From Oceanibacterium hippocampi (GTDB taxonomy: Bacteria > Pseudomonadota > Alphaproteobacteria > Sneathiellales > Sneathiellaceae), in assembly GCF_900172325.1 (NCBI RefSeq), contig NZ_FWFR01000005.1:62001-126000 (forward strand): a stretch of 64,000 nt of DNA, read 5' to 3'. The notes below the pieces were generated by a model. That model saw nothing but the letters and a program-made list of their open reading frames with translations. It had not been told where the DNA came from and made no database searches. Shown one piece after another: positions 28,973 to 32,063 of this stretch (positions within the stretch are counted from its first letter, which is position 1; every line of letters begins with the position of its first letter). The translations under genes were made by a program, and so were the position numbers.

Positions 28973-29797
28973 CTAGAAGTGCGGTGCACCGAACACATCC
29001 CGGAAATAAATTTCACCGCTTACATAGGCAACTAGTTTCCCGTTCTGAAAGTCGCTTACTTCGGCATGTGTGAGAGACTTCTTTCCAAGCCAGTAAACAT
29101 GCGCGTCTTGACCAGGATTGATGTCCCGGCCTCGTTGTGGCTCGCCACTCAGGACGGGCTGATCACCGGGACGGCTGAATGCCCCTTTGATCGAGTAGCT
29201 AATTTCTTTTGCCGGCGTGTTGCCGGAGTTTTTGACAGTTACTTCGACCATCGGCACCCGGTTACCGCCGAACGATAGAGTGAGATTTGGCGTTGTCGAC
29301 AAGTACGGTCTCAGTTGCAGTTGCATGTTCTCGCGTGACAGATCAATTGCAGCGAAGGCTGCCGTAGCGCCGCGTTCGGCTTCCTTGGTAGCGTCTCTTG
29401 TGGCACGCAACGTCTGTTTAAGGAGCCAAACAGCCCAAATGCTTACGATGAGAGCAACCACGCCGGATACCGCCATGATCCATTGTGGAATCGTATCGCC
29501 CCAGGGAATGCTGCTCGACCAATCTAGTTCCTCTTCCAACTGATCGGATTCGTCAACGCGGGTTTCGTAATCATGCGGGGCGTCGCGAGCTTCAGCATTC
29601 GGAGTTGGCTCGATGAGCCGGAGAGTTCCTTGGGTTTCAGCAGCCGATTGATCGGGGGAGTGGCGATGGTCTTCCTTTGGGGATGATTCTTGCTGAAGTT
29701 GTAAGTCTGGCGCGGCGACTTGAGGCCATGCTGACATTGGCAACATTAGAACGCCGATTGCCGTGAGCGCCAAGAGTACGGTGCTAGTGTTTACCAC
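28973..29797 (-). CDS. Membrane protein of unknown function in an AT-richer island
   Basis: A 274-residue protein with an N-terminal signal-like helix (TVLLALTAIGVLMLPMSAWP), a low-complexity segment rich in Glu, Ser and Gln (about 30-95), one membrane helix (WIMAVSGVVALIVSIWAVWLL, about 104-124), a short coil (TLRATRDATKEAERGATAA) and a C-terminal beta-rich domain starting RPYLSTTPNLTLSF. This helix-coil-RPY layout is common in uncharacterised proteobacterial proteins. The GTG start follows GGAGGA. Base composition and codon use (ATG-poor, AT-richer codons) differ from the core genes around it, so horizontal acquisition is likely. No function is proposed. Confidence 0.75.
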   Translation of the reverse strand: MVNTSTVLLALTAIGVLMLPMSAWPQVAAPDLQLQQESSPKEDHRHSPDQSAAETQGTLRLIEPTPNAEARDAPHDYETRVDESDQLEEELDWSSSIPWGDTIPQWIMAVSGVVALIVSIWAVWLLKQTLRATRDATKEAERGATAAFAAIDLSRENMQLQLRPYLSTTPNLTLSFGGNRVPMVEVTVKNSGNTPAKEISYSIKGAFSRPGDQPVLSGEPQRGRDINPGQDAHVYWLGKKSLTHAEVSDFQNGKLVAYVSGEIYFRDVFGAPHF

Positions 29798-29863: not shown

Positions 29864-30015
29864 TTAAAGATAATTGAAATACACGGTGTGATTGCACCCG
29901 TCTGTTCGGCACCAGATTTCTTGCTGGTGGTATCGCGGGCATTCCGAAGCCGGTACCTTGCGGATGCGGTGCCACCTCGTATGGCGGGAGCAAATCTCGC
30001 AATCGCCTCGGTTCC
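29864..30015 (-). pseudogene. Truncated IS1595-type transposase zinc-ribbon fragment
   Basis: On the minus strand the DNA encodes GDCEICSRHTRWHRIRKVPA followed by SEC, clearly related to GDCPKCSRHTKFHRIRKEPA of the intact transposase at 31037-31897. Only the zinc-ribbon part remains; the rest diverges and ends at TAA (29864-29866), with no catalytic domain. The intact element at 30016-31962 is inserted in this fragment: joining 30015 to 31971 restores one open frame. It is therefore the scar of an older, related insertion. Confidence 0.75.
30008..30015. repeat. Target-site duplication, left copy (TCGGTTCC)
   Basis: Identical to 31963-31970 and immediately outside the left inverted repeat. 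Eight bases is the normal duplication length for IS1595-family transposition. Confidence 0.9.
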
Positions 30016-30043
30016 GGCATATATCCCCTTTACCTATGTAGTG
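30016..30043 (+). repeat. IS1595 element left inverted repeat
   Basis: 28 bp beginning GGCATATATCCCC and ending TATGTAGTG. It differs from the right repeat at one base (T for G at 30031). Confidence 0.9.
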
Positions 30044-30191
30044 GAGCGGCGGTTGAAGATGCTCTATAAAGATCAGCTTGCGAACACTGGGTTTGGCGGG
30101 CGGCTTGAAGATACTACGCAGGATTATCGCGCTTACTCGAAATTGGCGCATCGTTCCACCGGTCGGCGCCCCACCGGCTGCTGCGGCAATT

Positions 30192-31010
30192 GTGTGCGAG
30201 CGGTGGGCAACAATTGTTAGATGGATCAAATCGAATTGCGAAATTGAATGGGCCGTTGATTTGATTTCTGTTCCTGGGCTGTGGCCAGCCGCCGTGGTGC
30301 TCTTTGTGGGGTATTTCGTGGTCTTATTACTTAAGAACCGAACTCTTATGAATCGCCTGAAGCCGAGGCTGACAATTGGCGCAAACGGCTACGGTACGAT
30401 CATCGCGACGCGCGAGAAAATGGGGGGCGCTGGAAGGCCCCTTGTTACAACGACGGGATCTGCGTTTCCCGCCACCGTGAACAAGGTAGAGAACATTGGT
30501 GCTAGTAAGACAGATCACGAGGTAGTTTTTATCCGGGCCATTGTGTCGGCTTGCGGAACGGAGACTGTAAGCGACTGTCGAGTATATTTAGTGGCACTAT
30601 GTAAGATATCTTCTAATGGTAGTGTGGAACCTTCGGCCCTTACTGATCCTATTCAGCTGCCGTGGTATCCATCGAACCATTGTGCCGAGAACATTCACCC
30701 TGACCTGATCAAGTATGCAGCCGTCTTGCGGATTCCGTCGCACACCAACATTCCGGAGATTGCTGGAGATTATCCGTTGGTACTCAGCGGATTCTTCAAT
30801 GAGAGCGCAGAGTATGAGTTGGGCCTACATGTGACAGGTAACAACGCATCTGCGAAGGCGACTATTGTCGTAACCTGGGCCGGTGATACAGACTCGCTTA
30901 CGGTGAAGGAGAAAGGTGATGTTGCAGGACAAGGAATTAAGCCTAGAAGAAGCTCGCAAACTGGGTCAAATGGGGGAGTTCGTCCGGGATCACCCTTCGA
31001 TTGGCGATGA
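30192..31010 (+). CDS. IS passenger gene: single-pass membrane protein of unknown function
   Basis: About 272 residues from the GTG at 30192; a longer form from TTG at 30078 is open and the start is uncertain because no clear ribosome site is seen. One membrane helix (LWPAAVVLFVGYFVVLLLK) is followed by a large domain beginning KPRLTIGANGYGTI, with strands such as YPLVLSGFFNESAEYELGLHV and SAKATIVVTWAG, so it looks beta-rich. No family recognised. It lies wholly inside the IS1595 element, on the strand opposite to the transposase, and its last 31 codons overlap the next passenger gene. Confidence 0.65.
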   Translation: MCERWATIVRWIKSNCEIEWAVDLISVPGLWPAAVVLFVGYFVVLLLKNRTLMNRLKPRLTIGANGYGTIIATREKMGGAGRPLVTTTGSAFPATVNKVENIGASKTDHEVVFIRAIVSACGTETVSDCRVYLVALCKISSNGSVEPSALTDPIQLPWYPSNHCAENIHPDLIKYAAVLRIPSHTNIPEIAGDYPLVLSGFFNESAEYELGLHVTGNNASAKATIVVTWAGDTDSLTVKEKGDVAGQGIKPRRSSQTGSNGGVRPGSPFDWR

Positions 31011-31101
31011 GGATGTGTTCGATGCCCTGCTCGGTGCTATGGCTTCGGGAAAGCCTGCACCAGTAGATCAAACATCAGATGAGGCTGCTTCCGAAGATTG
31101 A
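30919..31101 (+). CDS. IS passenger gene: 60-residue protein
   Basis: Starts at ATG 30919 with AAGGAG 8 nt upstream, the best ribosome site in the element, inside the 3' end of the membrane-protein gene. The sequence (LSLEEARKLGQMGEFVRDHPS and DEDVFDALLGAMASGKPAP) resembles small hypothetical proteins that in other bacteria accompany unknown membrane proteins. Its last 65 bp overlap the 3' end of the convergent transposase gene. Function unknown. Confidence 0.55.
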   Translation: MLQDKELSLEEARKLGQMGEFVRDHPSIGDEDVFDALLGAMASGKPAPVDQTSDEAASED

Positions 31102-31897
31102 AGCGGAATTCGAACTCCGCGAGATAGCTCGACAGATGCTTGTCTGACACCCAGATGTAGGTTCCCTCGACACCGCGCTTGAGCGCCGCCCAGAACGACT
31201 CGATGGTGTTCGTATGGACCGGACCTCGCACGTATTCCTTAGCGGCATGATTGACGACGCCGTGGCGATAACCCCTTGAGGAGAGCAGGACGAAAGAGCC
31301 AGCCTGATCGGTGGCGACGCGCGTGCCCTGCTTGACCCATTCGGTGATATGCGGCGTGACCGTATTCCGGCTGCGGTTGGGGATGACGCGGGTGATGATA
31401 TCACCGCCGCGTTCGACCATGCCGAGTACGATGTACTTGTCGTCCTGACCCTGTTCGTCCCTACCTCCGATGAAGACCTTATCGACTTCAACGATCTTCT
31501 GGCCGCCCAGCATGGCGTCGCCATCGACCCAGCCCATGTACTTGCGGATCTCGTGGCCTATGCGCCACGCGGTCTTGTAGGTCACGCCCAACTGGCGCTC
31601 CAGCTCCTTGGCGGAGACGCCGTTGCGGGTCGTGGTGAAGAGGTACATGGCATAGAACCACTTCTGGAGCGGGGTGCGTGTCCGAGCGAATGGGGTGCCT
31701 GCCATCGGGTGGATATGATGCCCACACCATTGGCATTCCCAAGCCGGTTCCTTGCGGATGCGATGAAACTTGGTGTGGCGCGAACACTTTGGGCAATCAC
31801 CCTCGGTGCCGTAGCGGACCAGCATCAGGTGCTCCAGGCACGCCTCATCGGTAGGGAAGCGATTGAAGAAGTCCTGAATGGTGAATTGCTTGGCCAT
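31037..31897 (-). CDS. IS1595-family (ISXO2-like) transposase
   Basis: A 286-residue transposase. An N-terminal zinc ribbon (CPKC at about 34-37, CQWC at about 54-57) precedes the helix-turn-helix-like part (SAKELERQLGVTYKTAWRIGHEIR) and the DDE-type core: VEVDKVFIGG, RVATDQAG and HTNTIESFWAALKRG. Full length for the family, with no frameshift or stop, so it is probably active. It begins 38 bp from the right inverted repeat. Confidence 0.93.
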   Translation of the reverse strand: MAKQFTIQDFFNRFPTDEACLEHLMLVRYGTEGDCPKCSRHTKFHRIRKEPAWECQWCGHHIHPMAGTPFARTRTPLQKWFYAMYLFTTTRNGVSAKELERQLGVTYKTAWRIGHEIRKYMGWVDGDAMLGGQKIVEVDKVFIGGRDEQGQDDKYIVLGMVERGGDIITRVIPNRSRNTVTPHITEWVKQGTRVATDQAGSFVLLSSRGYRHGVVNHAAKEYVRGPVHTNTIESFWAALKRGVEGTYIWVSDKHLSSYLAEFEFRFNLRKQPHLMFDLLVQAFPKP

Positions 31898-31934
31898 ATC
31901 CTGTTCCTTTCGACACCTTGGATATGGGAATTCA

Positions 31935-31962
31935 CACTACATAGGTCAAGGGGATATATGCC
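31935..31962 (-). repeat. IS1595 element right inverted repeat
   Basis: 28 bp; its reverse complement begins GGCATATATCCCC and matches the left repeat at 27 positions. Confidence 0.9.
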
Positions 31963-31970
31963 TCGGTTCC
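31963..31970. repeat. Target-site duplication, right copy (TCGGTTCC)
   Basis: Identical to 30008-30015, directly outside the right inverted repeat. Confidence 0.9.
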
Positions 31971-31978
31971 CCGGACAT

Positions 31979-31993
31979 GAACAAATATCGAAC
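31979..31993 (+). promoter_or_regulatory. LexA (SOS) box, alphaproteobacterial GAAC-N7-GAAC type
   Basis: GAAC-AAATATC-GAAC is an exact match to the direct-repeat SOS operator of alphaproteobacteria (GTTC-N7-GTTC read on the other strand). It lies 120 bp before the recA start codon, 16 bp from the IS1595 right end. Confidence 0.7.
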
Positions 31994-32035: not shown

Positions 32036-32063
32036 TTGCCAACAAGAACAAATCATGTACATT
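32036..32063 (+). promoter_or_regulatory. Probable recA promoter with a second SOS-like site
   Basis: TTGCCA (32036-32041), 16-bp spacer, TACATT (32058-32063). Inside the spacer, GAAC-N7-GTAC at 32046-32060 is a one-base variant of the SOS box, placed where LexA would occlude polymerase. Confidence 0.5.

Follow-up and report, generated by a model that had tools for sequence, protein, structure and literature searches.

A conserved small gene accompanies the transposase, beside a variable cargo gene, in a clade of IS1595-family elements

The window analysed here is a stretch of 64,000 nucleotides from Oceanibacterium hippocampi (contig NZ_FWFR01000005.1, positions 62,001 to 126,000 of the forward strand). 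Between a gene for a CckA-like kinase and recA, which we take to be such from their translations, it contains a complete insertion sequence (IS) set into the remnant of an older one. The features of the locus, and a second element located elsewhere in the same genome, are as follows:

28973–29797, minus strand: gene for a 274-aa membrane protein, in an older low-GC stretch
29938–30015, minus strand: remnant of an older IS1595-type transposase, zinc-ribbon part, 78 bp, 77–78% nucleotide identity
30008–30015: target-site duplication, left copy, 8 bp, TCGGTTCC
30016–30043, plus strand: terminal inverted repeat at the cargo end, 28 bp, with homologous ends in relatives
30078–31010, plus strand: variable cargo gene, an ORF of at most 310 aa with one strongly hydrophobic stretch; start at TTG 30078 or a later codon
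30919–31101, plus strand: conserved small gene, 60 aa, starting within the 3' end of the cargo gene and ending within the transposase gene
31037–31101: convergent overlap of the 3' ends of the small gene and the transposase gene, 65 nt
31037–31897, minus strand: IS1595-family transposase, 286 aa, zinc ribbon and DDE domain
31935–31962, minus strand: terminal inverted repeat at the transposase end, 28 bp, containing TTGACC
31963–31970: target-site duplication, right copy, 8 bp, TCGGTTCC
G000:C16:1128000-1135500: diverged second element of the same clade (L045), 2,617 bp

The element measures 1,947 bp and spans positions 30016–31962, between the two copies of the direct repeat. Its inverted repeats pair at 27 of 28 positions (one mismatch, 96% complementary), and both ends and the duplication are still intact. 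A chance origin of these repeats was ruled out, since the same ends and duplications recur in relatives. The transposase is an uninterrupted reading frame with zinc ribbon cysteines C35-C38/C55-C58, and it exceeded the curated cut-offs of the NCBIfam model for IS1595 transposases (NF033547; 4.4e-56, 190 bits, cut-off 75) and of Pfam PF12762 (4.9e-35) and PF12760 (3.6e-8). The type of transposase, the terminal inverted repeats and the 8-bp target duplication all place the element in the IS1595 family, so that the exact 1,947-bp insertion with an intact transposase, as proposed in an earlier sequence-only reading of this DNA, was borne out. It is the sole full copy in its genome. The hexamer TTGACC in the transposase-end repeat resembles a −35 element and is oriented toward the transposase. 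Of 26 elements, 24 had a −35-like TTGANN hexamer in the transposase-side repeat and only seven had one in the cargo-side repeat, which suggests that the transposase promoter is located inside the transposase-side inverted repeat.

The target of the insertion lies within the zinc-ribbon region of the IS1595-type remnant, so that one IS landed in its own relative. To the left of the remnant, the 274-aa gene is carried on a low-GC stretch of 1.2 kb. Because the element sits in an older remnant beside this stretch, the locus records two or more successive mobile-element events, the 30016–31962 element being the younger. Homologs of the 274-aa protein were found in two of 384 other genomes of the class, one of them near a piece of an IS1595 transposase (L094). 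The 274-aa gene is possibly cargo of the older element, a reading that stays a suggestion because the L094 transposase piece is arranged head to head. It was not accepted as proven cargo: a likeness to the cargo of two clade elements (L015 and L017) was seen by eye, with no phmmer link at E < 0.01.

The insertion, which could affect recA expression, is absent from four of 24 sister-genus recA loci (L064, L070, L072 and L085). At these four loci, a cckA match of 60–64% identity lies 222–421 nt from recA (gap lengths are good to within a few bases); in the window, the distance is about 3.3 kb. The other sister-genus recA loci had no cckA in the flank examined, a weak match of 35% at L086 having been dropped. 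The sequence-only reading had taken the insertion to be recent, which may be so in view of its intact ends and duplication and of the four insert-free sister-genus loci. Two LexA-type boxes precede recA in the window, GAAC-N7-GTTC at 31990 and the conserved GAAC-N7-GTAC at 32046, and both are intact. The insertion terminates 19 bp short of the first of them.

A scan of genome contigs with the transposase yielded 16 loci, 14 at 53–68% identity and two outgroups at 31–36%. Of the 15 relatives in which both sides were readable, 13 had ends that match and a perfect duplication of 8 bp, and the relatives' elements are 1.7–2.9 kb in length. In a second set of loci, ends and perfect duplication were identified for 11 of 17 transposases, including L050, which is the identical locus to L013; in the same search, they were absent or imperfect at L047, L049, L053, L058 and for both transposases of L054. 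Two further loci (L061 and L062) were without a transposase. (L050 and L013, as well as L060 and L059, which are the same element, were deduplicated, and L050 and L060 were excluded from the alignment for the codon-position, DNA-homology and Mantel analyses.) Other elements of the clade were checked for differing ends, which proved to be homologous and element-specific, and none of 60 related genomes examined contained the same 2 kb without the repeats. One genome (G399) carries the same 2,434-bp element at two sites with different duplications, which suggests that the whole unit moves in that relative. The second element of the O. hippocampi genome, L045, is flanked by its own duplication, TTTCGATT, and contains a cargo gene for a four-TM protein unlike that of the window, another ORF of 299 aa and a homologous small gene.

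With a cargo gene of at most 310 codons inside the IS ends at 30016–31962, the window element can be described as a transporter IS (tIS), like its relatives. It had been singled out as an unusual transporter; an extra gene is indeed carried, but the element is not singular, since every complete relative examined has non-transposase ORFs. The window cargo had no match in Pfam, NCBIfam or PHROGs and no relative in viral contigs, and a search of 385 genomes of the class returned a single weak homolog (E = 3.7e-4) outside its own genome, making two genomes in total. Its fold, modelled alone, was unusable (pLDDT 37). Cargo ORFs were taken throughout as the longest non-overlapping ORFs, and their starts are uncertain. 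When 30 cargo proteins of relatives were scanned with Pfam, Trypsin_2 (L048) and DUF7946/7947 (L052 and L055) scored above curated cut-offs. The C-terminus of the L048 cargo, a trypsin-like peptidase, looked by eye like the C-terminal half of the small protein. Simple hydropathy indicated one or more membrane stretches in the cargo of six of 14 distinct loci, and some cargo proteins are small membrane proteins with an effector-like shape.

Related cargo was found in five pairs only (phmmer E < 0.01). Even the two most similar transposase pairs, L012/L015 (86% identical) and L045/L052 (85%), carry unrelated cargo. DNA homology between L045 and L052 extends over positions 1–1052, up to the start codon of the L045 small gene, and then resumes for the last ≈85 bp only. 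The homology between L046 and L051 likewise stops at the small-gene start codon. In four other close pairs, it ends earlier, inside the small gene, and never crosses the start codon into the cargo.

Both a membrane protein and a 60-residue protein had been noted opposite the transposase strand, and both reading frames are present. The small ORF starts at 30916 or 30919 (61 or 60 aa, respectively) and stops at 31101. It belongs to a family of proteins of about 50–75 aa across the clade, predicted to be helical, with the motif (L)SLEEARK.GKL..F..EHPSEGD...FD.LL.AMA. No match to the small protein was found in Pfam, NCBIfam or PHROGs. It was modelled with modest confidence as three short helices (pLDDT 73, pTM 0.38), and a Foldseek search with this model found nothing, the best PDB match having an E value of 7.5.

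A census of the family was started from a seed of four elements with ORFs of about 50–67 aa sharing the motif. The seed profile matched 12 distinct loci over the N-terminal-to-middle part, giving alignment A1. Searched over 385 genomes of the class, the A1 profile, which was trained in part on the same loci, produced 18 matches in 15 genomes, 16 of them convergent with the 3' end of an IS1595 transposase. Thirteen matches were not among the A1 rows, and a transposase lies beside 11 of these; the remaining two are a fragment of 24 aa in G327 and a match on G040:C77, a contig that has no transposase. Two additional matches, each adjoining a transposase, were found in 369 genomes of the phylum. 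A search of phages and plasmids with the small protein of L014 gave no match.

The census was also run in reverse, from the transposase, on 27 clade loci of the class whose 3' end could be read (leaving out L117 and L125, which lack the 3' end, L127, an outgroup without the small gene, and two further places that yielded no locus). The long form was present at 16 loci, a form corresponding to the C-terminal half (E < 1e-4) at seven, a marginal match at three and none at one. About one third of the clade has only the C-terminal-half form, much of it antisense to the transposase. No small gene was detected by profile at L048/L124. Long forms beyond the training set were found at L098, L099, L122 and L126. 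The first two are plasmid copies that had been found by their transposase alone, from Sulfitobacter and a Geminicoccaceae bacterium, and the small gene is present in both, with no CDS listed at that position in an incomplete gene table. Viral contigs contained two transposase relatives, L096 with the short form and L097 with no small gene. Across 19 elements, small-protein distances correlated with transposase distances (Mantel r 0.69, p 1e-4).

The sequence-only reading had regarded the two genes on the plus strand as unrelated passengers. This is apt for the membrane protein, which behaves as swappable cargo, but not for the 60-aa protein, whose family is almost confined to the 3' ends of clade transposases and co-varies with them. 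What is new here is that the 60-aa protein is conserved with the transposase as its partner and is no unrelated passenger. Because the small protein tracks the transposase while the cargo is swapped, we read these tIS as consisting of a fixed transposase–small-protein module, a cargo slot and a far end, with the small protein most likely acting as a regulator of the transposase. Taken as a whole, we give this reading about an even chance of being correct.

The small protein might instead be a second passenger, captured once by the ancestor of the clade and useful to the host, not to transposition. Such an origin would be in keeping with the long form being missing or halved in about one third of the clade. 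However, the gene has persisted at the slot's transposase side while the cargo was replaced repeatedly, and 13 of the 15 new matches adjoin a transposase rather than lying free in genomes. We therefore consider a second passenger unlikely.

In 22 of 24 elements, the start codon of the small gene lies between −23 and +10 nt from the cargo stop. The exceptions are the window element (−92) and L057 (+615), although the 615-nt gap of the latter may hide an overlooked cargo gene closer by. Such tight coupling would also be expected if the small protein served the cargo as an antitoxin or immunity protein, forming a toxin–antitoxin-like pair that keeps the element in its host. The small, membrane-bound and effector-like shape of some cargo would agree with such a pair, as would the matches of at most four of 32 cargo proteins to PADLOC candidate-defence models (one member per model, best 6e-9). 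Nevertheless, it is one and the same small-protein family that accompanies unrelated cargo, at odds with the one-toxin-family specificity of a toxin–antitoxin module, and the family follows transposase distances. Furthermore, L015 and L017 have their cargo on the transposase strand, leaving the short form by itself. A role as antitoxin thus appears rather improbable.

The small gene and the transposase gene overlap by 32–125 nt in all elements measured, except in L014, where the small gene is 723 nt away from the transposase; overlap with the transposase is therefore not required. The best-conserved part of the small gene falls outside the overlap. There, differences at the three codon positions were 0.45/0.39/0.63, and stop codons closed the remaining five frames in 12 to 22 of the 23 sequences. 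(The alignment was built in the coding frame, which biases the frame comparison toward that frame, but leaves the stop counts unaffected.) Based on the codon-position variation and the closed frames, we rejected the possibility that the long form is an antisense artefact of a conserved transposase end. The short form could be conserved through being antisense to the transposase; short forms possess their own start codon. Residues 331–354 of the L118 cargo ORF matched the small protein within its C-terminal half (E = 0.004). In L118 and L048, the cargo seems to be fused to a small-protein-like piece, a weak match that would fit a modular role. That the protein is incidental, and selection acts on RNA or DNA (the cargo transcript serving as antisense RNA against the 3' end of the transposase gene, or the stretch working as a terminator or a site of recombination), would account for the convergent overlap in nearly all elements and for a slot edge at a fixed position, but is difficult to reconcile with conservation that peaks beyond the overlap, coding-type variation, mostly closed alternative frames and start codons that adjoin many different cargo stops, and we consider it quite unlikely.

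In the module-and-slot arrangement that we favor, one end of the element is a fixed block consisting of the inverted repeat, the transposase gene and the convergent, overlapping small gene. The cargo slot reaches from the small-gene start codon to the far end and is filled with genes that are unrelated from one element to the next, and the far end itself is short and fixed, comprising the second inverted repeat. The small protein would be an accessory factor in transposition, with regulation of the transposase as its likeliest task. Since the protein varies with the transposase rather than with the cargo, involvement in transposition is the simplest assumption, and the coupling of the small gene to the cargo mRNA hints at regulation. 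The protein would be made from that mRNA, whose 3' end would run antisense into the transposase gene, tying transposase output to whichever cargo is aboard. More speculatively, starting at the cargo stop may couple the translation of any captured cargo to transposase control, so that the element would sense an expressed cargo and tune its movement, an elaboration that we think is probably incorrect.

A simple insertion sequence is commonly viewed as a transposase gene with its two ends, to which a passenger is occasionally added. The present clade as a whole retains, in addition, a small gene without a name, at the transposase side of a slot open to unrelated genes. Such elements offer a testable model for the way in which a minimal transposon takes up cargo, exchanges it and perhaps regulates it. 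The cargo is also a reservoir of uncharacterised proteins, a few of which resemble candidate defence proteins.

The elements share with IS1595-family ISs a transposase with a zinc ribbon and a DDE_Tnp_IS1595 domain, inverted repeats and the 8-bp duplication. An ordinary IS of this family is about 1 kb long, whereas those described here reach 1.7–2.9 kb and have a conserved small second gene and a cargo slot. Accessory regulators are known from other ISs, such as InsA of IS1 and OrfA of IS911, and the likeness lies in a small, element-encoded protein that is kept with the transposase. Unlike InsA and OrfA, the small protein described here does not stem from the transposase frame; its gene lies on the other strand and is coupled to the cargo, and its regulatory role is a proposal. 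The conserved small gene is unmentioned in the literature searched, which covered neither ISfinder nor Siguier et al. 2009; the latter may already show it. Members of the IS1595 family with passengers go by the name of transporter ISs (PMC3129680, PMC5704250 and PMC7986276), and according to a title cited in PMC5704250, one of them, tISCpe8, carries lincomycin resistance. tISCpe8 and MTnSag1/tISSag10 resemble the present elements in having an IS1595-type transposase with passenger genes between the ends. In the elements described here, by contrast, most cargo falls outside known families, and the slot borders on the gene of a conserved small protein.
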